Positions 1,743 through 59,592 of a DNA stretch of 64,000 nt are shown here, one piece after another. This DNA is from Pycnococcus provasolii (lineage: Eukaryota > Chlorophyta > Pseudoscourfieldiophyceae > Pseudoscourfieldiales > Pycnococcaceae). Location: assembly GCA_938743325.2 (NCBI GenBank), contig OW568887.1:186001-250000 (forward strand), written 5' to 3'. Both the position numbers and the translations under genes were made by a program. The first letter of the stretch is position 1. Every line of letters starts with the position of its first letter. Under the pieces are notes generated by a model. The model saw only the letters and a program-made list of their open reading frames with translations. It ran no database searches and was not told the DNA's origin.

Positions 1743-1760
1743 TAACCCTAACCCTAACCC
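1743..1760. repeat. Telomere-like CCCTAA array in the PFK/ankyrin divergent promoter
   Basis: Three CCCTAA units on the plus strand, about 110 bp upstream of the PFK start and 140 bp upstream of the ankyrin gene start. On the PFK coding strand it reads TTAGGG. It is one of many such short arrays near gene starts in the window. Confidence 0.8.
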
Positions 1761-1900
1761 GTTCCGTCCCTCCTCCACTGCCAGCCAGAGACATATATTC
1801 AAACGTGATTCCCGCGGATCGTCGTGACAGACGACGACGACGATCTTCACAACGACGACGACAACTGATGAATTGAACGACAGTACTTAGACGACCATCC

Positions 1901-3003
1901 ATGCCAACAAAGTACTCGCGCAGGGATGCGAGGAAGAAGGACGACAATGGGTGCCTTCCGCTGCATCGGGCGGCTATTGACAATGATATCACCAAAATAC
2001 GCAAACTCGTCAACGTCTACGCTGAAGGCATTCGTACGAAAGACAACGACGGCGATCTTCCCCTTCATTGTGCAGTAGATTGTCGTTGTGCGCCCGTGGA
2101 GGTGGTGAATTATCTCGTCGAGGACTCGAGGCGTATCCCGATGGAGTGAATGTGAAAAACAACGACGGCGATCTTCCCCTTCACCGTGCAGTATCTTGTC
2201 ATTGTGCGCCGTTCGAGGTAATCAAGTACCTCGTCGAGACGACCCCTAATGGAGTTTACGCGAAAAACAACGACGGCGATCTTCCCCTTCACTGTGCGGC
2301 AAACATAGGCAGGACCTTAGAGATAGTCAAATGCCTCGTCGAAGCTTACGCAGATGGCGTTCGTGAGAAAACCAACAACGGATGCCTTCCCTTGCATTGT
2401 TGTGCGGTGTCATCAGGCTGCAACGTAGATCCCGTGCATATGGCAGCACGCAAAAATAGGCTCTTGGAGGTGGTGAAGTATCTCGTAGAAGCATACCCAG
2501 ATGGCGTTCGTGAGAAAGCCATCTGGACGGATTTGGACGGACATTTTGACGGTGGGCAACTTCCTGTGCATGCTGCAGCATACGGTGGTGCGCCCTTGGA
2601 GATAGTCAAGTATCTTGTCGAGGCGTTTCCTAAAAGTCTACGTGTAAAAGACATCGTCGGGAGGCGTCCACTCGATGCTGCCAAGTTCCAAGATGCTCCA
2701 CCAGACGTGATTGCGTACCTCGAGAGTCGCGAGGCGTGCGCCAACTGCGGTCGGACCTTACGCGATGTCAAGGCCAATGGCGGGAAGCTGCGCGTGTGCT
2801 CGGGGTGCTCGGGGTCCGCGGCGCCAACGCTGTACTGCAGCACCGCTTGTCAGAAGGCGGCTTGGCCGCAACACAAGCGCGAGTGTCGCGGGTGTCGCTC
2901 TAAGCAAGCCGTCGGAGATCGATCGACCAACGAGAAGGAGCTCGATGTCTGCGCTGGCGCCTCCGTCGCCGAGGAAGGAGGGCATGTACCCCAAAGCGGG
3001 TAG
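1901..3003 (+). pseudogene. Ankyrin-repeat protein with C-terminal MYND zinc finger, interrupted by a frameshift
   Basis: Ankyrin repeats with the recurring core NNDGDLPLHxA run from the ATG at 1901 and continue to about 2730. A C-terminal MYND finger follows (CxxC, CxxC, YCS..CQ..W..HK..C, about 2740-2885). The frame that starts at 1901 stops at 2149, and the rest lies in another frame. Around 2117-2130 an extra 8 bp (gactcgag, close to the preceding gtcgag) separates YLVE from AYPDG; without it the ankyrin consensus would run straight through. The repeats are also very similar at DNA level. Ankyrin/MYND proteins are usually protein-interaction modules. It may be a recent pseudogene, a strain-specific null, or an assembly error; an 8-bp intron is not credible. 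The downstream frame has no early ATG. Confidence 0.75.
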
Positions 3004-3099
3004 GGCGGCGCCGGCGGAGGCGACGAAGGAGGCGACGACGGCGCGAGCGACGGCGGAGGCGGAATTGATTTATTGATATTTAATTGAAATAAACAACAT

Positions 3100-4350
3100 T
3101 TACTGACATTTTTGCTTCTCTCGCCGCTCAATCTCTGCGCGCAGCTCCGCAAATGCAGTTCGCCGTCGCTGAGACTCTTCCCGTGCCGACGGCGACGGCA
3201 TGGGGATGCCCGCGCCTGCACCAGCCTTCACAGGCGCCACATCCTCATCCATGTCGTCGTCCATCATCGCGGAGTCCGATGCAGAGCACAGCTGTTCACC
3301 GCGCTCGACGCACTCCGCCGCGCACGCGAGCGACTCCTCCGTAGCCTCCTCGTCGCCCGCGCCGTCCGACTGCCGCAGATGGCAAACGCCAAGCACGTAC
3401 CAGACATCCGCCTCGCCGTCATCCACCTCGACGAGACGCTCGAGGAGCGCGGTCGCATCCGCGAGCTCGCCCACCTCGACGAGCAGCTTCGCGCACGCGA
3501 AGTGCGATTCGAAGCTGTTGTACACATCCTCCTCGGAGATGCTCGCGGGTGGCGAGCGTCGTTTCATGCACTCCGCGATACAAGTTCGTGCGGCGGCAGA
3601 GTCGCCCTGCGTGAGGCGCAGCGACGCGAGCGCCTGCCACGGTTCTGGGTTGGACGTGTCTGTCGCCGCCGCCTCCTCGAGTAGTGCTTGCACTTCGCCG
3701 TCCGCGCGCTGCATAGCCTGCGCGTCGGGCGCGTCATCCTCAAACGCGTGCGCCTGCAGAACAGCCTCCGCGAGGCTGCTCAGCGCGACGCTGAGTTCGG
3801 CGCTGACGTCTGCCGCCTTCCCCGTTTTGCTGCTTTGCGCGAGCGCGCGTAGCATGTCGACGCCTTTCCGTAGGCTGGCAGCGCCGTGCTCGACGTTTCC
3901 TTCGCTGACGAGCAGTTGTCCGAGCGCCATGTACTTTTCGTGTCCGACTTCAGGTGCGATTGCGATTGCGTGTCTGAACGCCGCTTCGGCGAGTTGGCTT
4001 TGTCCCGTTTCCGCGAGAAGTGCACCAAGTTCCTCCATGGTCTCCGCATCTTGCGGCGCGAGGTTGACAGCCAACTTGAGGTCCGAGATTGCGCCCACGA
4101 CATCACCCATGGCAGCTCTTTGCGCGGCGCGTGTGCGCAACGCAGTAGTCGCCACCCCTCCGTCTCCAGACGCTGCCAGAGACAAAGACGAACCACCACC
4201 AGCAAGCTTACCAACTTGCGCATGAGCATGAGACTGAGCCTGATGAGCATGAGCCTGATGAGCCTGATGAGCCTGAGACGAAGCTCCACGGGATGATGGG
4301 GAAGCCTCTTGGGAAGCCTGCTTCTTCATGCGACTAGACGGCTTACCCAT
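3100..4350 (-). CDS. ACL4: TPR protein resembling Acl4, assembly chaperone of ribosomal protein uL4
   Basis: A 416-aa protein starting MGKPSSRMKKQ, with a His/Ala/Gln-rich low-complexity stretch near residues 20-50 and then tetratricopeptide repeats. The repeats include a segment around DVYNSFESHFACAKLL and DVWYVLGVCHLRQSD. An acidic tail with DDDMDEDVAP and a charged C-terminus follow. This layout matches plant and fungal proteins annotated as the dedicated chaperone that holds free uL4 (Rpl4) before ribosome assembly; that assignment is from memory. The frame is open for 58 more codons upstream, but that part encodes VSVSVSVS from a GCTAAC hexamer repeat and runs into the divergent promoter, so the ATG at 4350 was chosen. 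It converges on the ankyrin gene and diverges from FPGS. Confidence 0.65.
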   Translation of the reverse strand: MGKPSSRMKKQASQEASPSSRGASSQAHQAHQAHAHQAQSHAHAQVGKLAGGGSSLSLAASGDGGVATTALRTRAAQRAAMGDVVGAISDLKLAVNLAPQDAETMEELGALLAETGQSQLAEAAFRHAIAIAPEVGHEKYMALGQLLVSEGNVEHGAASLRKGVDMLRALAQSSKTGKAADVSAELSVALSSLAEAVLQAHAFEDDAPDAQAMQRADGEVQALLEEAAATDTSNPEPWQALASLRLTQGDSAAARTCIAECMKRRSPPASISEEDVYNSFESHFACAKLLVEVGELADATALLERLVEVDDGEADVWYVLGVCHLRQSDGAGDEEATEESLACAAECVERGEQLCSASDSAMMDDDMDEDVAPVKAGAGAGIPMPSPSAREESQRRRTAFAELRAEIERREKQKCQ

Positions 4351-4380
4351 GCTAACGCTAACGCTAACGCTAACGCTAAT
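4351..4380. repeat. GCTAAC hexamer array directly upstream of the Acl4-like start codon
   Basis: Four GCTAAC units plus GCTAAT abut the ATG at 4350. On the coding strand this is a TTAGCG-phase hexamer repeat, a variant of the TTAGGG arrays seen before other genes. About 150 bp further away (near 4525-4541) there are two CCCTAAA-like units. Confidence 0.8.
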
Positions 4381-4693
4381 ATGTAGTGATACGGTACTGA
4401 TTTGACAAATAAATAAATGTAGGGCGTGTTGCGGGGATGAATGGCGGCGGAATGATTGGCGTGAGTGCGAACCCCGTTTGGGAAAAGGTCGGTGGAAAAC
4501 CAAGGGGTCGTTTCGGGGTTTCATTCTAAACCCTAAACCCTACTTTTTAGTTTTCTCGTTCGGCCTTTCGCTCTTATTATCGGCTTACAGTATCCCTGTT
4601 TGTTGCCTGTTTGTGGTGTCATTATTCTCATTTCCGCCGCCGCCATCAAGCCAACTTCGCCTATACGCCATATTTATTGTTCATTCTCTTAAT

Positions 4694-6301: not shown

Positions 6302-6352
6302 ATGTAAACAACTTATGAAATAAAATCATTTTTTTTTAAATGTTCAATTCTT

Positions 6353-7670: not shown

Positions 7671-7704
7671 AACCGTAACCCTAACCGTAACCCTAACCCT
7701 AATC
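7671..7704. repeat. Telomere-like CCCTAA/CCGTAA array upstream of the U-box gene
   Basis: Alternating aaccgt and aaccct units on the plus strand, reading TTAGGG/TTACGG on the U-box coding strand, 40-70 bp from its ATG. The rest of 7705-8214 shows no gene that I can support. Confidence 0.8.
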
Positions 7705-8214
7705 CTGTTTCCCTGAGAACCCTAATCCACGAACACACACCACCCAGGATTCCAGGAACCTATCGGCTATCGTAGATTCGTAGTCCACTGGTCTGCGGCG
7801 AGATGGCCACGGACGACGCCTTAAGTTGGTCTATTACAGCAATACATACATATACACGGTGATGTCCACTCTAAGTCAAATTAAAGGTAAACGAGGTCTA
7901 CGTGGCTCCGTGTTTCTTCTATCGTCGACGGCACGACACTCCCTTGGGGGGTCCTTCACGTTTTCTTGTGATGAACGAAACTGCGGCTGGGCAGGATGAT
8001 GGGGACAGGGACAGGGACTCTGATGAAAGCTCACGAGCTGGTTCGTCCTTGTCTTCGGGGCCGCGAACGCCAACGACGCCTGCTGGACCCCCGGCGCATC
8101 GCCTTTGCGATCGCCGACTTCGACAGAGACGAAACAAACGCAGTTCACAACACGCATAGGCCATATGACAGCCTTAACCTTTGCGAACCTTGGAAATTGA
8201 AAAGCGAGGGAGGA

Positions 8215-9014
8215 ATGGCACCACCTCCGAACAAAATGTGGACTTCGCAGTGGCAGCAGGCGAAGCGCACGGTCGTCGAAAGAATCAGGCAGTACCTCGC
8301 CTCAGGGCGAAAGAGAAAGGACTTCGTGTCAACCGACCGCGCGAGGTGCCGACTCATGTACAAGGAAGTGAAGACATTCAAATGCGTCGTCGACAGCTTC
8401 GAAACGGTCGCGCACTCGCTGCGCTACGCGAACGACGCGTTCTTCCAGGAGCTGGCAACCACGCTTGAGTCGAACCTTCCCGTGCCTTTCGAGTTCAGGT
8501 GTACACATGCGCTTGCTCGGCAGACAGGTGTACCTCGGCCTTGAGGACTCCGTGCTCCGTCCCATCGGCCAGTGGAAAAAGCGTATTTCGCATCTGCCAA
8601 GAGGCGCATGGTTGAGCTTGATGCTCGACGACTGACGCTCGACTTCCACCGACGCGCGGCAGAGACACTGCTCGCCGAGTACAACAAGCTGCGCATTAAG
8701 CCTGTTGATTCGCGTGGTGCTAGGAAGGAGCGCCTGGATGCTCGCATGCGCTCGATGCGTGAGAGGTGGCGCGTGCGTGATGCCAAACACCGCGCGGTCT
8801 TGTGTCGTACGCATCGTGCGAAGCCTCGGCGTACGCGGAGCTGCGCTACCTCACATGCACGGCTCCTAACTTGCGTGCGTCGCTCTGCTCCGCCATCGCC
8901 GTGCAGGGATCCGGCTTCTCTCTCGCGCGCACGATCATGACGCACCGTGTCCAGGATAGGCGTCAGCTGCCCCCTCACTCACCGTATAAGATGACGACGG
9001 TGCACTCCTCGTGA
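8215..9014 (+). pseudogene. Decayed BAR-domain protein gene
   Basis: Three successive frames encode pieces that read like one BAR (membrane-curving coiled-coil) domain. First MAPPPNKMWTSQWQQAKR onward with FVSTDRARCRLMYKEVKTF; then LEDSVLRPIGQWKKRI (near 8542-8583), the BAR hallmark of a VLxPxxxW block; then SAKRRMVELDARRLTLDFHR (near 8590-8650); then CEASAYAELRYLTC and a C-terminal helix to 9014. The frame changes near 8495, 8585 and 8800, with no room for introns at the second one. At least three frameshifts in 0.8 kb indicate a dead gene. The open frame extends upstream to 7996 without BAR character. Neighbouring genes are intact, which argues against general sequencing error. Confidence 0.6.
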
Positions 9015-9100
9015 GCTGATATGAGACTTGACTATTTGACACCACGAGCGGAGACCCAGGACGAAACGGATGCCAAAAATTGTCAAGTGGTTACAACATA

Positions 9101-13025: not shown

Positions 13026-13119
13026 GCGATTTAAATAATACCGTATTATAAATATGGATTTATCGTATGTTGGGATGCATTCTCAGCCTCACAATCAAAT
13101 CACCCTTAGGGGGAGGAGA

Positions 13120-13315
13120 TGTTCCGTTTATTATTAGGGGTTAGGAGAAGAGAAGCTCAGTTCAGTTTATTAGGGGTTAGGCGAGAAGAGAAGTTCAGTT
13201 TATTAGGGGTTAGGCGAGAAGAGAAGTTCAGTTTATTAGGGGTTAGGCGAGAATGAAGGCGAGAAGTGAAGTTCAGTTTATTAGGGGTTAGGCGAGTGAG
13301 AAGTTTAGGGGTTAG
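13120..13315. repeat. 33-bp minisatellite containing TTAGGGGTTAGG
   Basis: About five to six head-to-tail copies of a 33-bp unit with the core ttattaggggttaggcgag followed by aagagaagttcag. The unit length was checked between the perfect central copies; outer copies are imperfect. It lies in the divergent gap between the aldo/keto reductase-like gene and the plastid hypothetical. The gap 13026-13427 holds nothing else I can support, apart from a T-rich tract near the downstream start. Confidence 0.85.
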
Positions 13316-13427
13316 GGCTTGGTTGTGATGTTTCATTTTTCATTTTTGTTGGTGTGTGTGGATAAGACGGCGGTGATTACTTTTGTTTTTTTCGTTTTTC
13401 TTCTTCTTCTTCTTCTTGACGACGATA

Positions 13428-14997: not shown

Positions 14998-15041
14998 AGT
15001 TAGGGTTAGGGTTAGGGTTACGGGTTACGGGTTAGGGTTAG
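14998..15041. repeat. TTAGGG/TTACGGG array in the BLOC1S2/methyltransferase-like divergent promoter
   Basis: Three TTAGGG units, two TTACGGG variants and two further TTAGGG units, reading forward on the methyltransferase-like coding strand. The remainder of 14926-15306 contains a run of CACAC/CGCAC repeats near 15070 and AT-rich sequence just before the downstream gene. Confidence 0.85.
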
Positions 15042-15306
15042 CATTAGGGTATTGGTAGTTTACCTCCGCACCACACCACACCGCACCGCACACAGGTGAC
15101 TTTTTTGCGATTATTGCGCCGACCGACATTCTAAATAATCTTTCTGCTGCTACCTATATATGGCTTATTATGGCTCTTATTAGGTGAAGGTGCATAAATG
15201 TGCATAAATAAATAAGTTTAAGTGCTCTCTTTTTTTATCTTCTGTGTGTTCTTGTGTGTTTCTTGTGGAAGATAATACTGTATCACTTATTATAGGATTG
15301 GATACG

Positions 15307-16810: not shown

Positions 16811-18769
16811 ATGCCCAAGGCTCGTGGTGGCGGTGGTGGCGGTGGCGGTGGCGCTGCTGCTCCTGCTCGTCTCCCTGCGTTATCTGCTGGTACTTCTCTC
16901 ACAGATGTTGGTGCGAATCTGCTGGATCCCATGTTCACGCTTGGCACATACCACGGTCGTTACCACCATCCCCCAGACGTTTCTAACGTGCTCGACCGAG
17001 CGAAAAAAGCTGGAGTGGAACGTATGATTGTTACGGCGGGATGTCTGTCGGAAGCACGTGAGGCGATCGCGTTCTGCGAAGAGCACGACCCGGCTGGCAC
17101 ATTCCTCTTCTGCACCGCGGGCGTGCACCCCACGCGCGTCGAAGTGGAATTCGAGGGTCAGACGGCGCAGGCCACCTTGGAGCAGTGGGACGAGTTCCTT
17201 CACGAGCACGTGCCGCAAGGGCGCATCGTCGCGCTCGGCGAGTGCGGGCTCGACGACGCGAGGCTGCAGTTCGCAAGTCAGGAAAGCCAGGACAGATGGT
17301 TGCTTCCACAGCTTAAACTAGCGAGAAAGCACAAGCTTCCGCTGTTCTTGCACATGAGAGGTTGTGACGACGACGAGGATGAGAACGCGACGGAGCCGTG
17401 TCCCGCGGCTGTGCGACTCGTGGATGCCATTCGTGCATCCCGGTCATCCTCCGGCGAGGAGCTGCTCCCGCACGGTGCAGTGTGCCACAGCTTCACCGGA
17501 ACGCGCGCGGATCTCGACCACCTGCTCAGTGTGGCTGGCATGACAATTGGGCTGAACGGGTGCTCGCTTCGCACGGAGCTGAACGTGCGTGTGGCGGCTG
17601 CCGTTCCTATCGACAGACTTATGCTCGAGACGGATTGTCCATGGTGCGAGCTCAAGCCTACTCACGCGTCGCGTGCGCTGTTGACTGCGACTGCGGCGCA
17701 GATGAGGGATCATGACGCGATGACGTACGTGAAGAAAGAAAAGTGGAGAAGCGACGCTCTCGTCAAAGGTCGCTGCGAGCCCATTCACATCATTCATGTC
17801 TTGCATGCCGTAGCTGCCGCACGACGCAAATATGCGGTAAGTGATTCGACCATGTCCTCAGACGAGACATGCGCGGTGCAATCGAGCGTCGAGGAACACG
17901 CTGCATACGTCGCGATGGCTGTGAATACAACGACGACTGCGGTGTTCTTTTCGAAGGGAGGTTCTCGTTCGAAGAAACCAATCTGCAAGACACCCTTATC
18001 CTTGAAGGTGGACGTGGACGTGCCACCGCCGCTGCACGACGTGGAACGCCTGGAGACGCCGACGGCAACGGACGTGGACCGCGACTTTGGTGCGCTGCTG
18101 AAAGACCGGCGCGGCATATCGCCGACGCTGGTTGTGTCCGTGCCCCCACCGGCGCCCGTACTTGAGGAGGACGTGACGCGCCTGGAGACGCCGACGGCAA
18201 CGGACGTGGACCGCGTCTTTGGCGAGCTGCTGAAAGACCGGCGCGGCATATCGCCGACGCTGGTTGTGTCCGTGCCCCCACCGGCGCCTGTGCATGAGGA
18301 GGACGTGACGCGCCTGGAGACGCCGACGGCAACGGACGTGGACCGCGACTTTGGCGCGCTGCTGAAAGACCGTCGCGGCATATCGCCGACGCTGGTTGTG
18401 TCCGTGCCCCCACCGGCGCCCGTACTTGAGGAGGACGTGACGCGCCTGGAGACGCCGACGGCAACGGACGTGGACCGCGACTTTGGCGCGCTGCTGAAAG
18501 ACCGTCGCGGCATATCACCAACGCTGGTTGTGTCCGTGCCCCCACCGGCGCCTGTGCATGAGGAGGACGTGACGCGCCTGGAGACTCCAACGGCAGTCCA
18601 GGTGGACCGCGACTTTGGCGCCTTACTGGAGGAGAAGAAGGACGAGGAGGAGGACACCACCACCGCCGCCGCCGCCAACAACAACAACAGCAGCAGCAGC
18701 AGCAGCAGCGGCATGCTGCCAACACCAAGCTATTTGTGTGCTCTGCTTGCAAGATGGCTGCACTTGTAA
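16811..18769 (+). CDS. TATDN1: TATDN1-type TatD metal-dependent deoxyribonuclease with 44-residue repeat tail
   Basis: Residues about 28-340 match eukaryotic TATDN1 closely. They include TDVGANLLDPMFTLGTYHGR, TAGVHPTR, GRIVALGECGLD (metal-binding Glu), LPLFLHMRG (His), CHSFTGT (His), GLNGCSLRTELN, LMLETDCPWCELKPTHAS (Asp) and the closing RCEPIHIIHVL. TatD enzymes are Mg-dependent 3'-5' nucleases or phosphoesterases. A poly-Gly run follows the N-terminal MPKAR. After a linker there are five copies of a 44-residue unit (starts at 18049, 18181, 18313, 18445 and 18577; period 132 bp) with LETPTATDVDRDFGALL and PTLVVSVPPPAPV. The tail ends in Asn/Ser runs and a hydrophobic closing segment. Normal TATDN1 is about 300 aa, so the tail doubles it. 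Confidence 0.92.
   Translation: MPKARGGGGGGGGGAAAPARLPALSAGTSLTDVGANLLDPMFTLGTYHGRYHHPPDVSNVLDRAKKAGVERMIVTAGCLSEAREAIAFCEEHDPAGTFLFCTAGVHPTRVEVEFEGQTAQATLEQWDEFLHEHVPQGRIVALGECGLDDARLQFASQESQDRWLLPQLKLARKHKLPLFLHMRGCDDDEDENATEPCPAAVRLVDAIRASRSSSGEELLPHGAVCHSFTGTRADLDHLLSVAGMTIGLNGCSLRTELNVRVAAAVPIDRLMLETDCPWCELKPTHASRALLTATAAQMRDHDAMTYVKKEKWRSDALVKGRCEPIHIIHVLHAVAAARRKYAVSDSTMSSDETCAVQSSVEEHAAYVAMAVNTTTTAVFFSKGGSRSKKPICKTPLSLKVDVDVPPPLHDVERLETPTATDVDRDFGALLKDRRGISPTLVVSVPPPAPVLEEDVTRLETPTATDVDRVFGELLKDRRGISPTLVVSVPPPAPVHEEDVTRLETPTATDVDRDFGALLKDRRGISPTLVVSVPPPAPVLEEDVTRLETPTATDVDRDFGALLKDRRGISPTLVVSVPPPAPVHEEDVTRLETPTAVQVDRDFGALLEEKKDEEEDTTTAAAANNNNSSSSSSSGMLPTPSYLCALLARWLHL
18049..18640 (+). 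repeat. 132-bp in-frame tandem repeat, five copies, alternating as 264-bp dimers
   Basis: Starts at 18049, 18181, 18313, 18445 and 18577, each exactly 132 bp apart and nearly identical. Units alternate between PAPVLEED and PAPVHEED at their junctions, so the array looks like it grew by duplicating a two-unit block. The second unit has DRVFGELL instead of DRDFGALL. Confidence 0.9.
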
Positions 18770-18829: not shown

Positions 18830-19513
18830 TTACTGCTCCGTCTCAGACGGCCTGGTCTTTCCCTCCCACGTCGCCTGCCACTGCTTATCGTAGAACGTCG
18901 CCTCGTCGCTGAGCTCCTTGTAGACGTCGAGGTCCTTATCGCTGCGAACGAAGAGGCAGAAGAGCACGGTTCCGAGCGTCGCGATCTGTCCGAGCGGGCT
19001 CGTCAGCTGGTCGACAAGGCGCACGTGGAAGACGAGGTCAACGAGAAGTGCGACGGTGAATCCGACCATGGTGGCACGTCCGTTGATAAGCTCCGCCTCG
19101 GGAAGGTGGAAGCGGCGCACCCACACGGACGTGGGGATCTCGCTGAGGTCGAAGGTGACTGGCGTGGTGTCGGAGATGGGTTCCGGCGACACCTCGAGCC
19201 AGCGGCGGCGCACCACCTCGGCATCGATGACGGCATCCCAGTTCGTCTCACCGTCCGCGTTGGCGAACTGCGCGATGTCCCAGGTTCCGTTAACGAATCG
19301 TGGGTCATTGAAGCGTTGCCCAGGTTTCATGACAACTTTCGCATTCGAGGCATCTTTTCCTAAAGCCTTATCTCCCTTGAGCGTTCCACCCTTTTCGAGC
19401 GGCGACACCTTGCGCGCTCGCGTCTCGACGGCGGCACGCGGACGAATGGACGAACGCAACGACGGGCGAGCAACAGAGGGACGGGCATTTGAGAGTTTCA
19501 TCATGGTTGACAT
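18830..19513 (-). CDS. LIL3: Light-harvesting-like protein LIL3
   Basis: LIL3 anchors geranylgeranyl reductase and protochlorophyllide reductase in thylakoids for chlorophyll synthesis. The 227-aa product starts with a basic transit peptide. It then shows family blocks: DPRFVNGTWDIAQF, NWDAVIDAEVVRRRWLE, PVTFDLSEIPTSVWVRRFHL, the chlorophyll-binding helix PEAELINGRATMVGF, a second membrane helix, and the closing ATFYDKQWQATWEGK. The ATG at 19513 (MSTMMKLSN) was preferred to one 13 codons upstream. It converges on TATDN1 across about 60 bp. LIL3 is a strong sign of a green plastid lineage. Confidence 0.93.
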   Translation of the reverse strand: MSTMMKLSNARPSVARPSLRSSIRPRAAVETRARKVSPLEKGGTLKGDKALGKDASNAKVVMKPGQRFNDPRFVNGTWDIAQFANADGETNWDAVIDAEVVRRRWLEVSPEPISDTTPVTFDLSEIPTSVWVRRFHLPEAELINGRATMVGFTVALLVDLVFHVRLVDQLTSPLGQIATLGTVLFCLFVRSDKDLDVYKELSDEATFYDKQWQATWEGKTRPSETEQ

Positions 19514-21147: not shown

Positions 21148-22218
21148 TTAACGTCCACCGGGCAGCTGCAGAAGTCCCGTTGCGCCACCGGGAGGCAGCA
21201 CCTCGACACCACGTGCCTGCATCGCCGCCTTCGTTGGCAGCTGGCTCTTCTTCCATCCGTTGAATCCACCCTTGATCACGTACACCTGTCCAAAGCCCAT
21301 GGATGAAAGGCGCTTCGCGATGTTCGACGCCTTGCTTCCGTTGGAGTCAAGCAGGAGGATCTGCGTTCCTCGCGTGACGCGCTTGAGTCCCGCGACGCGC
21401 ATGGCAGCGACGCCATCCTCGACGGAGTTGACATCCTTAAACTGTCCGCGAAGGGCTCCAGACTCGATTCCGCTCGGCACGCGGTTCACCTTTCCGCTTG
21501 CGGCGCGCGGCACGTCCGGCAGTCCGGAGCCAGCCACCTCGGAGTCTCCGCGGATGTCGACGAGAACGGCGTTGCTCTCCGTCACGAGCACGTCAAGCGC
21601 CTGCAGGGCAGTGTACTCGCCGGCGTAGCCTCGCGCAGCGACGCTGAGCGCGCCGAGCAGGCTGGGCGCGGCGAGGTAGAGCACGACCGCGGCGCCGGCG
21701 TAGACGGCAAGGTCCTGCGGCTCCTGCTCGGAGAGCGCGGCGACGACACCCTGCAGAACTCCGACCGTCTTCTCGACCGCCGGTCCGGCGACGGTGACGG
21801 TCTTGCTCGCGACGTCCGTGACGGTCGCGGTGTCGACACCCTGGTCAGCGAGCGCCTTGATCGCCGCCTCTCCGGCGGGCTTCGCCGCGGCGACAATTTT
21901 CGTGGCTGCGTCAGAGACGACGGGTGCGGCAGCGTCCAAAGACGACTTCACGACAGGCGACGCCTCTTCAAGTGCCTTGGATGCCTGTTCGATCGCACTG
22001 GATGTGAGTGGCGCAGCTTTTTCTGAGAGCGACGACACCAGACCACCTGTTCCTGAAACGATGTCCGCAAACTTAGCAGCAGCCCCACTTGAGGCGGCAA
22101 ACGCAGGGGCCGGGGTCCCCACAAGAAGGAGAGAAGACCCACCGACTACACCAGCAGGGGCAAGACGGATAGGCAAAGGTGCACGAGGCTTGACAGACAT
22201 GCGAGACGCGAGAGCCAT
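21148..22218 (-). CDS. CAS: Thylakoid calcium-sensing receptor CAS with rhodanese-like domain
   Basis: CAS is a thylakoid membrane protein that links calcium to photoprotection and CO2 responses in algae and plants. The 356-aa product has a transit peptide and a cleavage site near AFAASS (about 41). An Ala-rich, low-complexity N-terminal domain with repeated acidic residues follows. One membrane helix lies at about 169-192 and a C-terminal rhodanese-like domain at about 205-325 (AVLVDIRGDSE, ILLLDSNGSKASNIAKRL, VYVIKGGFNGWKKS). The rhodanese active Cys is absent, as expected for CAS. It converges on the SNARE gene. Confidence 0.88.
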   Translation of the reverse strand: MALASRMSVKPRAPLPIRLAPAGVVGGSSLLLVGTPAPAFAASSGAAAKFADIVSGTGGLVSSLSEKAAPLTSSAIEQASKALEEASPVVKSSLDAAAPVVSDAATKIVAAAKPAGEAAIKALADQGVDTATVTDVASKTVTVAGPAVEKTVGVLQGVVAALSEQEPQDLAVYAGAAVVLYLAAPSLLGALSVAARGYAGEYTALQALDVLVTESNAVLVDIRGDSEVAGSGLPDVPRAASGKVNRVPSGIESGALRGQFKDVNSVEDGVAAMRVAGLKRVTRGTQILLLDSNGSKASNIAKRLSSMGFGQVYVIKGGFNGWKKSQLPTKAAMQARGVEVLPPGGATGLLQLPGGR

Positions 22219-23232
22219 TGAGCTTGAATTGTTTGTGATCGCGAGACCGCCGATCGGGAGGGGAACCGCAGCTTGGTGGAAGTTTAGACGGATAGATAGA
22301 TTTGGGGACCCGTGATCGGTGTCTGTGGCTCGCTCCGATCACCCCGGGGGGGGGAGGCGGGTTGAGGGGGGGGTACACCTTTGGTTGGATTGGCTGGGTT
22401 GGATTGGCCACGTGACCACGTCTGGCACCTCCACTGACCTCCACGGTGGAAGCCTAGCTTCATAGTATGGAGGAAACCTACCGGCCGGCGTAGGTGGTCG
22501 TCTCTGGAAACGCGTCTCCCACACGACACACGCGAGCTTGACAGACGCGCAGACAGCAGAGTCAGTTTCTCAGCGCAATACATAGAAAAAACACGGGAAT
22601 TTCCCACTTGATGAGCAGCTCCTTGAGACAAAAAGAAGAGGCAGCAGCTCCACAAACAGCACAAACGGCGTATTCCTAGTCTCTGTGTTGGTCGAATGAT
22701 CGGATCCCGCGGCCTACCAACGCTGTGGGACCCATCATTTTCTCCTCGCCATCCTTTTCTAAGGGATTGCTGCCAAGAAACATGACATCAACGCTGACAT
22801 CAACGTTGTCAAGACAACAACGTTGTCGTTCCCATCAACGTGACATCACCTCTTGCCTTAGTACTACCTGCTGCTTCGAGTTCGAAATTCCTGTTGGAAA
22901 GGGTTGGGGAAAGGGACCTGTGAACCCAAACGCAACCAGGAAAGGAGTGGCAACTGGGCAAGTTTTAGTAGACAAATAAGTGAAGTTGGCGCCGTTCTCG
23001 CCCGCGTGTAAGCTCTCCAAGACTCTTTCACAAGGCTGCGCCGTCGAACCCTGAAGACCCTTTTGCCGCCTGGGACCCGTGGTTTTTTCTTTTTCAGCAT
23101 AATAAGTTACGTACCTTAAGGTTTCAGGTTTCATCCCCATCACTGGGGGTAGGTGTGCAGTTGCTTTTCAGTTGCTTTTCAGTGCCAGGGGTATTCTTTT
23201 CTTAACGTTAAGTTAAGTCACTTTTGGTAAGT
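22219..23232. other. One-kilobase gap between CAS and the TPX2-like gene
   Basis: I see no convincing gene. There are G runs near 22345-22375 and repeated ctgacatcaacg/caacgttg motifs near 22787-22850. A GTAAG near 23008 and a pyrimidine-rich tract ending in CAG at 23097 could bound a 90-bp intron in the 5' leader of the downstream gene. That intron is a guess without transcript data. Confidence 0.4.
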
Positions 23233-26578: not shown

Positions 26579-26637
26579 CACGCGAACCCGAACCCGAACC
26601 CTAACCCTAACCCACCTCCCTAACCCTAACCCTAAGA
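26579..26637. repeat. CCCGAA/CCCTAA telomere-like array upstream of the radical-SAM-like gene
   Basis: Three CCCGAA-type units, two CCCTAA units, a short break and two further CCCTAA units on the plus strand, reading TTAGGG on the gene's coding strand. It lies 50-110 bp from the ATG at 26526. Confidence 0.85.
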
Positions 26638-27861: not shown

Positions 27862-28071
27862 TCTTCTTCTTAGTCTATTATAATATTATTACGATAGGGA
27901 ACGATGTTTTTAACGCCGCCGCCGCTAGCTAGATGGCGAATCAGGAGTGCCAGGGGCGTGAATCATGCCAGGGGGGCGGAAAGTTTCCCCCAGATGAAAG
28001 ACAGACAGGCCATAGGGCATACCTACCCTAGGGTACCGGTTAGGGTTTCCACGGCAGAGAGTTAGGGTTAG

Positions 28072-28100
28072 GGTTAGGGTTAGGGTTAGGGTTAGGGTTT
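28072..28100. repeat. TTAGGG array upstream of the 2OG oxygenase gene
   Basis: About five perfect TTAGGG units, 70-100 bp upstream of the ATG at 28173 and reading forward on its coding strand. A single TTAGGG lies 30 bp further upstream. The rest of the divergent gap 27862-28172 shows nothing else. Confidence 0.88.
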
Positions 28101-32706: not shown

Positions 32707-32757
32707 GGGTATTTAGGGTTAGGGTATTCGAGTTAGGGCTAGGGTTAGGGTATTCGG
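32707..32757. repeat. TTAGGG-type array upstream of SecE
   Basis: Broken runs of ttagggttaggg, ttagggctagggttaggg and tattcgggtt on the plus strand, 130-180 bp upstream of the SecE start, reading forward on its coding strand. Units are mixed with TATTCG spacers. Confidence 0.75.
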
Positions 32758-33535: not shown

Positions 33536-34339
33536 TAACGCCGTTGTGCACCAAAATAATGACACACGACAATTTTCCAAGTTGGTAAATCGCTGCGTTG
33601 TCCTCCTCGGCGTTTCTGAAAAAGAATTGTGTGATATTACAAGTATTCAACTCTCAAAGCCAAACTTTTGCCGCTGTCTGCGCTCTCGTAGCATCTTATT
33701 GCCTATGCCCTCGTTCCAGCCAAGATTTACACCTTTCGGCAGCTTCGTGCTTACGTACCCGACGGTATGCAACTCTTTCGGAGCACTGCGACCACTGCCA
33801 AGCTTCTTGCTGCGAGCTTGCTTGTTTCCTTTCACGGTGCGGTGTATTGGTGCGAGCTTGCTGGCGCGTGCGCTGACGTGATCGTGTGTCACGGCAAGAA
33901 GTGCTCTCCTTGGAGCTTGCGTCACCGTCGTCGCAAGCTCCCCACGCGCCACTATCGTTTGGCAGCTTGCTAACCTTAGGAGCAGGACGACAGCGGCCAC
34001 CAGGACGTTGCATATTGAAGGAGGACGCGTGCGAGCCGAAAGACGCATCCAAACCAACCAAACCAACGTCTGTCAATGGCCAAATGCCAAGCCTGTGAAC
34101 TAACCTTAACACGCAGTAAACCAGTAAAAGCTAACCTTATTTCGCATGCACGGCCTGGCCTGTTGTTTTTCGTCGGCTGAGAACAGCGAGACACACCAAC
34201 CACCACACCACGCCCACAAGACAGACAGAAATGGGGGCACCAATACCGACTTTAACACGCGGCCTCCGTGGTGCTCTGCAGAACTCAGAACTCATCAGAA
34301 GGGAAAAAGAATAAGACGCGAGCGCTAACCCTAACCCTA
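33536..34339. other. Gap without a supported gene
   Basis: Contains repeated gcgagcttgct motifs near 33820-33960 and a 68-codon frame (33767-33973) with a signal-peptide-like start and several Cys, which I could not support as a gene. A CCCTAA array lies at the end (34326-34344). It falls within the tail of the weak gene that follows. Confidence 0.45.
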
Positions 34340-35088
34340 ACCAGGTGCCCTATTGTTCGGTCGAATAAAGGTGTATGTAGCACTTGGTATGTACGATACA
34401 ATTGTTCCGTGACGTTTGACCACACTGTAGTCTAAGGAAAAGCAAGCAAGCTGAAAACCACGAAGAAAAAACGAGTACGTATGTCGCCACCTCTCTAAAG
34501 GTACGGGTAGTCTAAGGTTAGGAAGGTCGCAACACACAAGTAAACACACGTAACCACTATTACATGCTTGGGCTGCGGCGAAACGTAGCTTTTTCAGTTC
34601 GCGTACTCGACGGTCGTGCTCGTCATCGAAATTCATCATCGAAGAATCAGCATGCGCAAGCTGCGGATCGTCCGTCATCTCATCGGCTACTGCGCGCGAC
34701 CTCGACATTTGAACAATCCGGTTGAGTACCCACGGAGGTGTCGGCGCGTTGAGGGGGATTGCGAAGACGCGCGCGAGCGCGACGTCCTCCGCGTGACCAC
34801 CAAGCACCGACGATGCATTTGTAACTGCGAACAACACCTCGCCGCCGAGTGGGCTGACGATTTCCTCCATGAACTTCTTGAATAGAATTGGTTCTTGATG
34901 ATGTCGCGCGATAATAAGTTCCAGTCAAGCCGCGCTAGTAGTTTGTCGTCGCCTCGATTAGGAAGCTGACAACAAACGATACCGTCTTCGGGCATCCGTA
35001 CTCGCATTTGAAGCCACGCCGCATCGCTGCCTTGAAGTTGCTCTGCACGCGGGAGTAGCAGCTCCACGGTTGGTCCCGGGGTACACAT
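34340..35088 (-). pseudogene. Possible gene split by a frameshift, beside a Mutator-like insertion
   Basis: From the ATG at 35088 a frame runs MCTPGPTVELLLPRAEQL..., protein-like up to LLSRDIIKNQF near 34890. A second frame then runs KKFMEEIVSPLGGEVLFAV and on to 34340, also protein-like. Neither frame matches a family I know. A one- or two-base shift near 34880 would join them. The first ATG is only about 70 bp from the left end of the transposon at 35160, with a CCCTAA-like box (aacccaaaccctaacc, about 35134-35149) between. It may be a real gene disabled in its promoter, or chance open frames. Confidence 0.4.
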
Positions 35089-35150
35089 GTAAACACGACC
35101 GGGATCCCCAGCCCTGGAGCAGGTAAAAAAGTAACCCAAACCCTAACCGA

Positions 35151-36179
35151 GGGGAATCCAAGGGCATATTAATCCGTGGGCAGGTCACTTACGACTTCCC
35201 CGTTGAAGCCTCACTTGACAACAGGGGTTTGGCGATTTCTGTTTTTCGGGTTTATTGTTTCTCTGGCTCGGACATTCTCCTCCGACAATGGCGGGTCAAC
35301 AGGTGCGTTGCTCTTACATTTCTCAGGGTTGTGAACAATCTGTTCAGTGAAAGAGCAATTCCGTCTAACAGAAATGTCTGTACCTGTGTGTTGAACACGC
35401 GTGCAAAGTTTGGGCCAGGGTTTATTGACAGTTTTTTTTTTTTTTTATCTAACATAAACTCATCCACACACGACAACTTACACATAGAACCTTGATAAAG
35501 CTGCGAAGGAAAAAAAAGGTGTAAAACGTACAAGGGTTGTGGCGAACATGGCAAAAGCGAGGGCAGCCTTAGGAAGCGGCCGTTCGAATGAAGCGGCCGC
35601 AGTTGACCGTTCCGTAAAGAAGTCGTGCTCTGGGTTCACGGAGGCAGACTTTAAAACGGATGACATGAAAAAGGCGTTTCGACATCACTGCGTTGCTATT
35701 GTCAGCGACCACATTTGGGCATTTGCAGAGGGCGGAGGGCTTTGGGGAACGCAGAGTGGAGATTGGATCGTCGGGCGAACGGACGAAGGTGCTATTAAGT
35801 TGTCCACGTGTACAGCGGGCACGCTTTGCGCGTCCGGTGGGACACGTTGTATGGCATGCTCATCTAAAAGAGCCACCTTGCACAACTCGGTGACGCGCTT
35901 GGCTGGCCATTTGACAAATGGGCCGCCTGCAAATATGGCGCACAACGCCATACTTAGGAATAAAATCTTGAGTGCTCTTTCACTGAACAGATTGTTCACA
36001 ACCCTGAGAAATGTAAGAGCAACGCACCTGTTGACCCGCCATTGTCGGAGGAGAATGTCCGAGCCAGAGAAACAATAAACCCGAAAAACAGAAATCGCCA
36101 AACCCCTGTTGTCAAGTGAGGCTTCAACGGGGAAGTCGTAAGTGACCTGCCCACGGATTAATATGCCCTTGGGGAATCC
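35151..36179. mobile_element. Non-autonomous Mutator-like (MULE) DNA transposon with target-site duplication
   Basis: A 1011-bp element (35160-36170) has terminal inverted repeats of 198 bp (35160-35357 and 35973-36170) that are identical wherever I compared them base by base. It is flanked by a 9-bp direct repeat, ggggaatcc, at 35151-35159 and 36171-36179. A 9-bp target duplication with long inverted repeats is the Mutator hallmark. The inner 615 bp hold a T run near 35435 and an open frame (see next entry). No transposase is present, so it would depend on one elsewhere. Identical ends indicate recent insertion. Confidence 0.9.
35548..36078 (+). CDS. Uncharacterised open frame inside the Mutator-like element
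   Basis: A 176-codon frame from ATG 35548, starting MAKARAALGSGRSNEAA. Its first 140 residues include DHIWAFAEGGGLWGTQSGDW and a Cys-rich stretch (CTAGTLCASGGTRCMACS), which is more protein-like than chance sequence. The last 35 residues are read from the right inverted repeat. It could be a captured host gene fragment (Pack-MULE style), a decayed element gene, or a non-coding frame. No family recognised. Confidence 0.35.
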   Translation: MAKARAALGSGRSNEAAAVDRSVKKSCSGFTEADFKTDDMKKAFRHHCVAIVSDHIWAFAEGGGLWGTQSGDWIVGRTDEGAIKLSTCTAGTLCASGGTRCMACSSKRATLHNSVTRLAGHLTNGPPANMAHNAILRNKILSALSLNRLFTTLRNVRATHLLTRHCRRRMSEPEKQ

Positions 36180-42255: not shown

Positions 42256-42420
42256 CAATCAATCACCGAGGCACCGAGGATTCGGATTCGGATGATGATG
42301 GCGAAATCTTTCGGCGAAATCAGGGCCCCGGCCCCGGGGGGAAGAGGGATTGATATTTGAGGGGAGCGCGCGCCCGGCATTTATTTTATTTGCCCCTGGG
42401 TGGGGGGGGGGCTCAAAGAA

Positions 42421-43680
42421 AAAAATGAACAAAAAGGAATCTGCTGTGCTGGACTCCTTCTTGTTGTTGTTGGTCGACCCAGGTGGGGGGCCCGCGACGG
42501 TTTGGTGTTACACAAGAACAGTTGTAGTTGGGGATACGGCGTGGAATGAACCGGACGCAACGGGGGTTGGTGGGCCCCTGGCTAGCGGTAATTTAAGGCA
42601 CCACTACGATAGCGCTCAAGAAGATGAGGGCCCACCGGAAGCGTCAGCGTCGCTTGCACTAACCACTGCCACCACCCCGAGCGTTGAAGACGCGGTGGAT
42701 GTCGTCTTGAGGGCGACGGGCACGAGCCCCACTGCGGTTAAATTGGACGAGACGAAGAAGAGGCAAATTGCGGAGCAAATTGCAGCGGTGGTGAACAAAA
42801 TCAACACAACGAGAAACAGATCCTATGCAAGGCATTGGCACGCTTTTTCACAATGGATGACTAGTACGGCTAGTGCGGAGGAGAGCATTTTCGTGCCATG
42901 CGCACCGCCGGGTACAGTTTGGGTAAAAGTACCGGATGCGTCGTCGTGGTTTGCCAATCACGCAGACCCATTCAAATAGAGCCTAGAGACGCCGTAAAAC
43001 GCGTGCGTAATTGGTACTACCGCAAGTACCCTAACCTGAAAATTCATACAGTGTTGGGCCCTCTCGCACCTTCGTTGCACAAGTTGCGACATACGCACGG
43101 AGCGAGCGGTCAAGCTGTGCGCATGGGTATTGAGACATCAAAGCAGTACCTCCAAGCTAAGTTGCAAGGCAAAAATCAAAAAAATGGTGGCGAGGTCATC
43201 AACCTATCACCAGCCGATTTCGCGCTGGCGTTGCGCCGTTTTCGACTCTTCGAGTTCCGAGCCGCGCCAAGAACATCCTTGACCTCAAGGGCAAGCGAGT
43301 TTCGCGGAGTTGCTGAGGTTCCAAGGAGGAGCGTGTGGTGCGAGCTCGTTTTCGACTTTTCGAGTTCCGAGCCGCGCCAAGAACATCCTTGACCTCAAGG
43401 GCAAGCGAATTTCGCGGAGTTGCTGAGGTTCCAAGGAAGTGTGTGTGTTTGGGAACCGGTCCAGCGGATCGAGCATCTGGGCTTGGAACTGGACACCGTG
43501 GCTGGCACCTTTCGAGTGAGCGAACGCAAGCTCGAGAAGCAAAGAAGAAGTCTAAGCCCGCTCCAAAATATTTGGTGGGTCAAGTGATAGAACACCTTTT
43601 GGACCGTCCTGCTCTTGATCTAGCTCTCTTCTCTTCGAGAAACACCTTGAGCTGAATGCGGCCGATGTTAATCGGCCTAC
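42421..43680 (+). mobile_element. Fossil tyrosine-recombinase retroelement (DIRS-like), broken
   Basis: Two fragments of such an element lie in the same orientation. One (roughly 42760-43180) has the core-binding pattern RSYARHWHAFSQWM and an LRHTH box typical of tyrosine recombinases. The other (roughly 43400-43580) reads like the end of a reverse transcriptase of the DIRS group, with RIEHLGLELD and FRVSERKLEK. The element is in pieces with several breaks, and appears old. No intact ends were found here, though paired direct repeats lie 2 kb downstream. The family call rests on motifs and is moderate. Confidence 0.55.
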
Positions 43681-48272: not shown

Positions 48273-48380
48273 TCCGCCAACTCCACTTTCGACCCAACTA
48301 TTTCTTGTAATGACGTTGAGAGAGTGAATATTTTCTTGTTGTTTTACACGACGTGGTAGAATGAAATGTTTTAGGGTCTC

Positions 48381-49888: not shown

Positions 49889-49962
49889 GATTAGGGTTAG
49901 GGTTAGGGTTAGGGTTAGGGTTAGGGCTAGGGTTAGCCCCTCTGGTTAGGGTTAGGGCTAGC
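49889..49962. repeat. TTAGGG array upstream of PEX10
   Basis: Six TTAGGG/TTAGGGC units followed by further TTAGGG and CTAGGG units on the plus strand, 120-190 bp from the PEX10 ATG. In this case the coding strand of PEX10 reads CCCTAA. Downstream, 49965-50365 holds no gene; a GTCTCT/GTCTCTA microsatellite lies at about 50280-50310. Confidence 0.88.
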
Positions 49963-54079: not shown

Positions 54080-55538
54080 CGTGAGTCTTTCTTTGTGTAC
54101 TTCCTACGGGAAGAAAGCTGGCTCGCTTCGTCGAGGATGCCTGTGTGAAAGCCCGTCGCGAGCTCAGCAGGAAACCTCTTGAGCAGGGAGTGAGCGCTGC
54201 TTAAGTCGTGAGGCTCACTGAGCTTACACTGGTCAGCTGAAGAGGTCGACTAAGTACTACTCACTGTGTACACCTGTAGTAAAAGAAACACACACAGGGT
54301 GCGAGCGAGTGAGTGCAGCGAGCGACACACACACACACACGAGATACACACACACCAAAGAGATACAAGCTCTCCCGATGCGGGGAAGCACGAGAATACG
54401 AGCCTGGGCTGCGGCGTCCGTCGGCCAGAGGAGGCGGAGCAGGGAGGAGGGAGGAGGAGAGCTGTGCGCTGCCGCTGCGCTGCGATCGAGACGCACAGGC
54501 TCCAAAGCTCGCAAAGGAACGGACGACGTGCTTCTTCGAGCTTCCCACAGCGACGTAGGAAGGGTGATACCGACTGGCTTAAGCTGTGGGCTCGGCTGTG
54601 GGCTTGCTTGCTGCGCATCGCATCGCCTCGCATCGCATCGACGACGCTTCTCTTCTCTGGTGTCTGGTACTAGCGTAGCGTCGACGCCAATTCGTCATAG
54701 GCAATGCAATTGGTCGCGCGAATTCCTCTCTCGTTTTCTTTAGGATTTTTCGTCGAATTTCGCGAGGTTTTTCGACCATGTTTTGTTTGAGTCGAGAGAA
54801 ATGCTTGATTCGTCAAGTTCGCGTCTTGCCCCACCTCAAGGTGGCTTGGAATGGTGGCCGCTCATCGACTACGCAGTCCCCATGGGAGCACCAAACCCCC
54901 AAAACGAAAAAGTCACTTTCCTTCTTCGGTGGGATCTTGTCCGTCTTCGATCTGTATGGTAGAACTACTATGGTGCATGTTGTTGCTGGTGGAGGGGGAG
55001 GAGGGGGAGTTGCACAATGCAGACCCGCACGCTGGCTCCCAGCCTAAAATCGACTGAACACGCTGAACACCCTTTACAGTCTAAGAATTTAGTCGGCCAA
55101 GTGACGAAATATCCCAACACTACGATAAGTTAGTCCTGTTTCTACCAGGCACCACCTCCAGGAAGTCAGTTATGAATAGAAGAATAACGATCCAGGAAGA
55201 ACCCAAGGCAAGGCGCTCGAGGCTCAAGGCAGCAAGGCTCCCACGCCAAACGCTCATCACCCGCCAAACGAAGAATGCATGAGTTTAGGGAACTTCTAGA
55301 AACATGAAGCGAGCTGTGCGCCTGTGCAGTGTGCAGTCCCGTTCTTCCTGAACAGGGTCCGAAGAACAGGGAGAACGAGAACGGGCAGAGCGAGGGAGAC
55401 AAACCCCTAAACAAAACTGGGAAGTTGTGTCGAAACTTTCATGTCGAAACCCCTAAACGCGGGCTTTTGGGTTCGGGTCTATTTTTCAAGTCTCGCTGAC
55501 GCGTCAGTCAGTCACGTTGTTGGGACGCAGATCACGTC
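54080..55538. other. Long gap without a supported gene
   Basis: Contains CACACACACA near 54325, GCATC/GCATCG repeats near 54613-54640, and a 90-codon frame at 54778-55047 with a poly-Gly run that I could not support as a gene. AAACCCCTAAAC motifs (near 55405 and 55450) lie just before the PP2C start and resemble a telo-box. Confidence 0.45.
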
Positions 55539-57359: not shown

Positions 57360-57722
57360 GTTTTGTATATGGGACGTCTAATAATAAAATATTTGGGATT
57401 CATGAATACATTAAAGTAAAGTGCAGCTCTGCTCGTCCCTACTCTTTCACATACTTTCACATACAACTCTTCACGGTCGCCACAGCTGGTCGCCACAGCA
57501 TAAGAACGGATTTGTAAATTTGATTTGTCACAAACAAAGGCCGTTCCAGTTCAATTTTTCACACACACGGCTCCACCAACCCTGGGGGAAGCGTCCTTCG
57601 GGTTAGGGTTAGGGTTCGGGTTCGAAGAAGTGTTTAGGGGTTCGGGTTGCCCTCTCCTTTTCTACTCTTAACTCCCTTGGCGCTTCCCCCCATTCCCAAC
57701 TATTGAAGCAAGCTCCGCCGCG
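57360..57722. other. Gap with a TTAGGG array before the small membrane-protein gene
   Basis: A TTAGGGTTAGGGTTCGGG array lies at about 57602-57650, 70-120 bp upstream of the next start and reading forward on its coding strand. Nothing else recognised. Confidence 0.7.
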
Positions 57723-58322: not shown

Positions 58323-58375
58323 TGTCGCGCTTATTAGTTCGTAACATGTGTGTAAAACAGCTTTTTACTCTTCAC

Positions 58376-59407
58376 TCATGAGATTGCGCGCGCGCACTGG
58401 ATCGCACGCGCCACCTCCGCCAAGCTTGCCGCCAGCTTTCCCATACGCTCGACGTCAGTCTCCTCCTCCAGCGCGGCACGCACAACCTCCAGCTTCTTCA
58501 CAAGCGTGTACGCGCTTCGCGTGGCGTACGCCTTGATGGACTGACCAAGTTTCTCCTCGTACCCTTGCTGCTGCTGCTGCTTTCCCGGAGCCGTCGCCGC
58601 CTCTGTCGCCGTCGGCCTTGGCGGTGTTGCAGCCGCACTGGGAACACTATCCATACCTGCGTGTAGTTCGTCCGCGGGAAGAGGCTGGTAGTATTGGCGT
58701 GATGCCAGGCTATCGTAGAATTTGCTGCGTGCCATATCCCACTGCCGCTCTTGTTCGTCGTAGTCGACATCATCTTCGTTGTCATCTTCGAAATCGTCTT
58801 TCTTTTGTTCGAGCTGCCGCGTCTTTTGTGTCGTCGGTGGTGCGGCCGACGTCGCCGACGCCGACAAGGTGTTCGCTTTCCTGAGGTCGATGGTTCCCGG
58901 CACTGGCACTGGTAAGGCGGGCACAGTATGTTCCGTGACGACAGGCATGTCGCACCCGCAGCAGAACTTTGTTGTTTTGTCTCGGCTTCGAACGAGCGGG
59001 CAGTATCCACAGCTGTCCATGGGGCAGTGTTCGTCAATCAAGGCCCAACCCTGTAGCATTTTCGCCGCGATGAGTTCCGCCGCGGATTCTCGCGCCAGTT
59101 TGGCCTGTACGTGTTGAGGCGGCGGCGCGAGGCGCGGCACCACAGACACTGTCGTCTCTTCACGTTCACGGGTTGTCTCCGCACTCACAGACTTGTGCGG
59201 CGAGGGCGCAGATGGTCCAGCCACATTCGATGTGGCAACACACTCGCGTGTATCCCGGTTACACTTCGCGCAGAGGTACTTGGAGGCGTCCCGTGAGCGC
59301 ACGAGAGGCGTGTGGCACGCTGGCACAGGGCACACGTCACCAAGCAGCGTCCATCCCCCGAGCATCAGAGACGCGAGCGACTGCGACGTTGACGGAGGCG
59401 ACGACAT
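58376..59407 (-). CDS. ZNRD2/SSSCA1-like protein with two zinc-ribbon modules
   Basis: The 343-aa product has two copies of the ZNRD2 (Sjogren autoantigen p27) zinc module. The first is LMLGGWTLLGDVCPVPACHT with CxxxxC and CAKC; the second is MLQGWALIDEHCPMDSCGYC with CCGC. Linkers are low complexity. The C-terminal helix region (KLGQSIKAYATRSAYTLVKK) matches the family's end. The human protein has one module, so the tandem copy is a difference. ZNRD2 is linked to kinetochore/midbody function and, in recent annotations, is poorly defined. The ATG is at 59407. Confidence 0.78.
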   Translation of the reverse strand: MSSPPSTSQSLASLMLGGWTLLGDVCPVPACHTPLVRSRDASKYLCAKCNRDTRECVATSNVAGPSAPSPHKSVSAETTREREETTVSVVPRLAPPPQHVQAKLARESAAELIAAKMLQGWALIDEHCPMDSCGYCPLVRSRDKTTKFCCGCDMPVVTEHTVPALPVPVPGTIDLRKANTLSASATSAAPPTTQKTRQLEQKKDDFEDDNEDDVDYDEQERQWDMARSKFYDSLASRQYYQPLPADELHAGMDSVPSAAATPPRPTATEAATAPGKQQQQQGYEEKLGQSIKAYATRSAYTLVKKLEVVRAALEEETDVERMGKLAASLAEVARAIQCARAIS

Positions 59408-59547
59408 ACTTCACTTCACGTGAGAAACAAAAACGTGAGAAATGACGGGCAGCACCGACCGGGGATGGCGCGACCGGTGCACCCTCACATTCAGGAAAAA
59501 CAATTGACGACGCGACAAATTCCATCCCAAGAAAGAAAACACCCGAT

Positions 59548-59592
59548 TCGTAACCCTAGCCCTAACCCTAACCCTAACCCTAACCCTACGGC
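59548..59592. repeat. CCCTAA array upstream of the ZNRD2-like gene
   Basis: One CCCTAG and about five CCCTAA units on the plus strand, 140-185 bp from the ATG at 59407, reading TTAGGG on the coding strand. The remaining 59593-60327 holds no gene I can support. Confidence 0.88.

Follow-up and report, generated by a model that had tools for sequence, protein, structure and literature searches.

Tandem TTAGGG arrays close to gene starts in a 64-kb window of Pycnococcus provasolii DNA: candidate short interstitial telomeric sequences

Introduction

Telomere-unit sequence away from chromosome ends is known from several systems, and here we describe tandem TTAGGG arrays that lie mostly close to gene starts in a stretch of Pycnococcus provasolii DNA (contig OW568887.1, positions 186,001 to 250,000; hereafter the window, 64,000 bases). 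In Arabidopsis, 9.7% of genes have one or several telo-boxes within 500 bp upstream (PMC3022908), and in moss the telo-boxes peak directly upstream of the transcription start site (PMC12616469). According to a proposal by Gaspin et al. (2010), promoters prone to recombination offer free 3' ends on which telomerase can act (PMC3022908). Short interstitial telomeric sequences (ITSs) of horse and human have been tied to double-strand-break repair and telomerase (PMC7215372). For a brown alga, ribosomal-protein promoters are reported to be without telo-box enrichment (PMC3212954). TTAGGG telomeres occur in some green algae (PMC7046594, PMC12636532), and Chloropicon primus has the telomere unit CCTAAAAA, a G+C content of 57.5%, and 0.50 genes per kb (PMC6731263). 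Two figures are given for the genome of P. provasolii, namely 22.7 Mb with 11,297 genes (PMC8209157), and 32.2 Mb with a chromosomal G+C content between 55.5 and 58.0% (PMC11130579). Our literature search, in sources seen in part, found no publication that describes TTAGGG arrays near the promoters of a chlorophyte.

Results

The window has 56% G+C, and its closely packed genes are mostly single open reading frames (ORFs). The 32 modelled genes leave 18,483 bp noncoding against 45,517 bp coding over the whole window. Their starts were placed manually, mostly at the first in-frame ATG, with no gene predictor. The ORF regions 7975-8544, 22284-22787, 35488-36078, 42299-42979, 54222-54743, and 63381-63953 were excluded as unsupported genes, and so were shorter or overlapping ORFs. 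We scanned both strands with an 18-mer of (TTAGGG)n at a threshold of at least 16 of 18 matches, which yielded 11 arrays. The GCTAAC array at 4351 (15/18) was added to give a working set of 12, whose edges were drawn by hand (Table 1). A further 15/18 match at 62950-62971 was excluded because it lies beyond the last gene model. All ten arrays listed in the initial annotation were found in place on direct check of the window sequence; it had missed those at 34325-34342 and 35131-35149, and in both cases the nearest modelled start is over 1.3 kb away. The array density is about one per 5.3 kb (12 in 64 kb). In 40 Markov-2 and 40 Markov-4 simulations no array arose at 16/18, and at 15/18 the means were 0.03 (maximum 1) and 0.58 (maximum 3), respectively. 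Exact TTAGGG on either strand occurs 67 times in the window versus 11.5 times expected from shuffles (standard deviation 3.3). As in short ITSs, tandem telomere-type hexamers exceed chance at apparently internal sites, the internal position being judged from flanking genes.

None of the 12 arrays overlaps coding sequence under the manual gene models, with the TPR gene taken to start at 4350; the adjacent array would be coding if the upstream in-frame ATG at 4524 were used. Ten arrays end 0 to 141 bp from a start codon, and the other two are at 1.3 and 2.1 kb. Hence 10 of 12 are within 150 bp of a modelled ATG, compared with a mean of 3.3 for random placement in noncoding DNA (p 0.00025 to 0.0004); this and the following distance cut-offs were picked after the data had been seen. 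Because one array serves two genes, these ten cover 11 of the 32 genes. When arrays were confined to their own gap, the 10 observed compare with 6.8 expected (p = 0.006 at 150 bp; p = 0.08 at 75 bp and 0.10 at 100 bp). Restriction to non-convergent gaps shorter than 1 kb gave 9/9 arrays within 150 bp versus 5.4 expected (p = 0.010), and restriction to those shorter than 650 bp gave 8/8 versus 5.7 (p = 0.066), tests that drop the long gaps, in which mobile DNA or genes missed by the models may lie. For these two gap classes the p values were 0.12 and 0.14 at 100 bp, and 0.048 and 0.21 at 200 bp, respectively. Other tandem repeats in gaps have no start bias, with 15 of 43 within 150 bp (p = 0.17), and 10 of 19 in non-convergent gaps shorter than 1 kb (p = 0.78). 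Telomeric and other repeats differ in their presence near starts (10/12 versus 15/43, Fisher p = 0.007, the 43 controls including four from convergent gaps). The proximity to starts is probably real and stronger for telomere-like than for other repeats. An excess close to gene starts, as known for telo-boxes, is thus seen here, though it loses strength in short gaps and when other cut-offs are used.

Among hexamers in the 150-bp upstream regions, CCCTAA/TTAGGG is the most frequent, found at 14 of 32 genes versus 4.7 expected (Markov-2; third by z-score), although these 14 occurrences are not independent because neighbouring divergent genes can share a copy. The density of TTAGGG in these upstream regions is about seven times that of other noncoding DNA. 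Only 14 of the 67 copies are isolated, that is, outside the arrays and a minisatellite (Table 1), which places the signal mainly in arrays. Of the isolated copies, five are in modelled coding DNA and nine outside. Dispersed single telo-boxes were considered but not retained, as the 14 isolated copies are not clearly above chance (11.5 expected for all copies in the window).

Segmentation of the 12 arrays gave 42 perfect units and 19 one-mismatch units. The latter comprise five TTAGCG, four TTACGG, four TTCGGG, three CTAGGG, and three others, with unit positions 2 and 6 unchanged throughout, in a variant sample that is small and censored by the admission of one mismatch at most. Some variants recur within single arrays, and one array consists wholly of TTAGCG units; this local repetition fits slippage more than selection for one motif. 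At least four GGG runs are present in 8 of the 12 arrays, 6-bp flanks included. A search for plant-type TTTAGGG arrays found no exact two-unit match in the window. With one or two mismatches there are four matches versus 0.09 expected, two of them being one overlapping site at 4524-4544.

The initial annotation had taken the absence of arrays from convergent gaps as evidence. The 11 convergent gaps amount to 1,434 bp, and this contrast lacks power because only 0.79 arrays are expected there and zero occurs in 44% of simulations (P(0) = 0.44). One convergent gap contains a single TTAGGG, at 48371. The initial annotation had also placed TTAGGG mostly on the coding strand with PEX10 as the exception, a bias that fell short of significance: 8 of 10 arrays are sense to the nearest start (p = 0.11), as are 4 of 5 in tandem gaps, and 8 of 12 when the two missed arrays are counted. 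There are two antisense exceptions, the BLOC1S2-like (14999) and PEX10-like arrays. A significant bias (9/10, p = 0.02) arises only if the array at 14998 is assigned to the farther gene, and was not retained.

Table 1. Telomere-like arrays and one TTAGGG-containing minisatellite of the window, with strand (for the arrays, that of the TTAGGG-type units).
Feature	Coordinates	Strand	Units	Position
Array	1742-1760	minus		PFK-like gene (ATG 1632, minus) on one side, ankyrin/MYND gene (ATG 1902, plus) on the other, both starts within 150 bp
Variant array	4351-4379	minus	GCTAAC x4.8 on plus, TTAGCG on minus; no perfect TTAGGG	Abuts chosen TPR-gene ATG 4350
Array	7671-7706	minus	3 perfect and 2 TTACGG	37 bp upstream of U-box gene (ATG 7633, minus)
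Minisatellite and flanks (not counted as array)	13106-13317	plus	33-bp unit (13131-13253); eight TTAGGG copies	Divergent gap AKR / G10
Array	14999-15050	plus		Nearest start is that of BLOC1S2-like gene (ATG 14925, minus), to which it is antisense; G12 (ATG 15307, plus) on the other side
Array	26585-26637	minus	TTCGGG variants	58 bp upstream of G18 (ATG 26526, minus)
Array	28061-28099	plus	6 perfect	73 bp upstream of 2OG-oxygenase gene (ATG 28173, plus)
Degenerate array	32713-32751	plus		52 bp upstream of SecE-like gene (ATG 32804, plus)
Array	34325-34342	minus		2.1 kb from nearest modelled start
Weak array (16/18)	35131-35149	minus		1.3 kb from nearest modelled start; beside inserted terminal-inverted-repeat element
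Longest array	49889-49962	plus	8 perfect	Antisense to PEX10-like gene (ATG 49769, minus), 119 bp upstream of its start
Array	57597-57622	plus	TTCGGG variants	100 bp upstream of G32 (ATG 57723, plus)
Array	59549-59590	minus		141 bp upstream of autoantigen-p27-like gene (ATG 59407, minus)

Several other features of the window were noted. At 1720-1745, beside the PFK array, lies an inverted repeat whose arms are 11 nt and whose loop is 4 nt long; one of the arms extends into the array. The ankyrin/MYND gene (1902-3003) has an apparent start at 1902 and a frame broken at about 2120-2150, by a short intron, sequencing error, or decay. Region 7975-9040 is without a long open frame except for one plus-strand ORF of 189 amino acids, and is perhaps a decayed gene or mobile element. 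The 2OG-oxygenase gene is divergent with an RbfA-like gene whose RbfA match is below the Pfam cut-off. The element beside the array at 35131-35149 lies 10 bp from it (35160-36170). It is 1,011 bp long and carries two mutually identical 198-bp terminal inverted repeats; a 9-bp direct repeat borders it on both sides (35151-35159 and 36171-36179), so it is probably a recent insertion. It is presumably Mutator-like, and its ORF of 196 amino acids has no Pfam match. Other repeats are a 132-bp tandem repeat within the TatD-like coding sequence (18047-18621, 4.4 copies, 94% match), and a 110-bp direct repeat outside the gene models (43237-43437, 1.8 copies, 97% match). The hexamers ATGGCG and GATGGC are each present in 6 of 32 upstream regions of 150 bp versus 1.3 expected (z about 3.5). 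We take them to be YY1-like, and one longer match of this kind is near 1685 (1685-1695).

The Pfam matches of the window proteins are eukaryotic-type, including Pex2/Pex12 with RING, synaptobrevin, TPX2, and BLOC1 subunit 2, and reveal no obvious common function among the array-flanked genes. The rhodanese-like protein at 21148-22218 presumably resembles CAS, a thylakoid protein of plants and green algae; among solved structures it best matches 8tfs_A, a 'rhodanese domain-containing protein'. We presume a resemblance to LIL3 for the protein at 18830-19513, which has no match among solved structures. The proline-serine-rich proteins of the window suggest a green alga.

TTAGGG arrays were also sought in outside sequences. 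A viral collection scanned for four TTAGGG units gave 17 stretches, in 15 of which the array lies inside a stop-to-stop ORF of at least 120 amino acids. Ten ORFs from 6 of the 17 were compared with Pfam and three matched (AAA, ParB N, and HNH). These viral stretches are not informative for the array question. A scan of prokaryote genomes gave 106 stretches with TTAGGG arrays, and some of the records with low ORF coverage or contig-end arrays may be eukaryotic. Against the 123 outside loci, neither the window gene models (tblastn, E 1e-5) nor the window itself (blastn, E 1e-10) had a match, and one scan of viral contigs confirmed no relative of the CAS-like protein. One record titled Planctomycetota bacterium ARS68 (L031, 1-6531) looks eukaryotic. 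It has an ORF of 1,311 amino acids with an RVT_1 reverse transcriptase domain (E 1.1e-11). Of its three TTAGGG arrays, two precede an identical sequence, which gives the impression of a retroelement linked to telomeric repeats.

Discussion

We read the arrays as short ITSs: telomerase or break repair would have seeded them in open promoter DNA, and slippage would have altered them afterwards. We consider the chance that this is correct to be about even. Where accessible DNA near promoters breaks or exposes a 3' end, telomerase or end-joining repair would add a small number of TTAGGG units, and replication slippage would then expand, shorten, and homogenise variants such as TTAGCG, TTACGG, and TTCGGG. 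The clustering near start codons would arise because promoter DNA is open and breaks more frequently, and because purifying selection clears arrays from coding DNA. Some arrays may secondarily bind telomere-repeat proteins and affect transcription. An ITS origin is supported by the excess of TTAGGG being carried by tandem arrays, by the two arrays away from modelled genes, one of which is beside a transposon insertion site, and by a strand use that is not significantly fixed. Several points weigh against it. For insertion that is passive, the array density seems high. In the 64-kb window no chromosome end with the species' own telomere repeat was recognised. Among the isolated noncoding copies, 4 of 9 are within 150 bp of a start versus 2.4 by area alone, which leaves room for a weak start preference of single boxes. 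As the other tandem repeats are unbiased towards starts, simple tolerance is insufficient, and the insertion bias would have to be specific to telomeric repeats.

The alternative of selected promoter elements is possible, with a smaller probability. A Tbf1- or TRF-like Myb-type protein would bind clustered TTAGGG in either orientation, exclude nucleosomes, and open single or divergent promoters. The arrays' greater closeness to starts compared with other repeats argues for such selection, and so does the rank of TTAGGG as top hexamer within 150 bp upstream. The Tbf1 of S. cerevisiae is described as needing no orientation or spacing of clustered TTAGGG (PMC2834713), and hence a weakly biased strand use does not count against selection; nucleosome exclusion has been ascribed to both Tbf1 and Rap1 (PMC6410037). 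Insertion and slippage are favoured over selected elements because single boxes, near chance level, are not clearly in excess, one array (that of the TPR gene) has no canonical unit, and two arrays are away from modelled genes. Moreover, the starts of 21 of 32 genes lack an array within 150 bp, and the array genes have no obvious common function. Plant telo-boxes are a precedent for binding sites of this kind, with TRB as the protein; the origin of TRB proteins is reported to lie within streptophyte algae (PMC12616469), so that a TRB would not be expected if the window is from a chlorophyte. The initial annotation had gone further in holding that the arrays act like a promoter element. Its enrichment near starts over shuffled positions stands (p about 0.0003), while the promoter role exceeds the evidence because isolated motifs show no clear excess, a perfect unit is missing from the TPR array, the genes have no obvious function in common, the convergent contrast lacks power, and the strand bias is not significant. 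Judged from sequence, a promoter function of the arrays is possible. It is possible, though less likely than not, that tandem telomeric arrays are a standard core-promoter module, in which a telomere-binding protein would have its nucleosome-free platform at perhaps a third of genes and telomerase would supply new sites; if so, telomere proteins would double as general transcription regulators genome-wide.

The arrays might instead be an ordinary hexanucleotide microsatellite, telomeric-looking by coincidence, excluded from coding DNA, and without preference for starts. Variants do recur locally as in microsatellites, gap length alone explains the absence from convergent gaps, and the enrichment is less pronounced when gaps are short or other cut-offs are applied. 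We regard this explanation as improbable, given that the own-gap p = 0.006 and the all-gap p = 0.0003 at 150 bp oppose the uniform placement that other repeats fit. Less probable still is a transcribed element of the 5' untranslated region whose coding strand would be the G-rich one and which would act via a G-quadruplex or R-loop. It would account for the sense orientation of 8 of 10 start-proximal arrays and for the GGG runs, but the strand bias is not significant, and the two clear antisense cases include the longest array.

The density of the arrays is notable under insertion or selection alike. If the 12 arrays in 64 kb, ten of them near starts, were representative genome-wide, thousands of interstitial telomeric arrays would lie beside genes in a small eukaryotic genome. 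It would then be a test bed for the seeding of regulatory DNA by telomerase, for the origins of telo-boxes, and for cross-talk between telomere proteins and transcription. Neutral arrays would still be markers of breaks and open chromatin.

Compared with known systems, the arrays share with plant telo-boxes a telomere-unit sequence enriched in 5' regions. They differ in that the plant motif is of about one unit (TTTAGGG) whereas those of the window are tandem TTAGGG arrays, within 150 bp of the start at 11 of 32 genes, and in having no visible link to ribosomal-protein genes. Unlike mammalian short ITSs, the arrays are dense and near gene starts; mammalian ITSs are much sparser. The two have in common short tandem TTAGGG-like stretches at internal sites (PMC7215372). 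The likeness to S. cerevisiae Tbf1 sites consists in clustered TTAGGG with no rule of orientation or spacing (PMC2834713) and concerns only the DNA side, and in contrast to yeast sites of Tbf1 and general regulatory factors, the genes of the window are heterogeneous. Sites of the C. albicans Tbf1 type were not found, as the palindrome TTAGGG-N6-CCCTAA has 0 matches in the window with spacers of 2-10 bases. Telo-boxes, short ITSs, and Tbf1 sites are the closest known counterparts of the telomere-type arrays described here.

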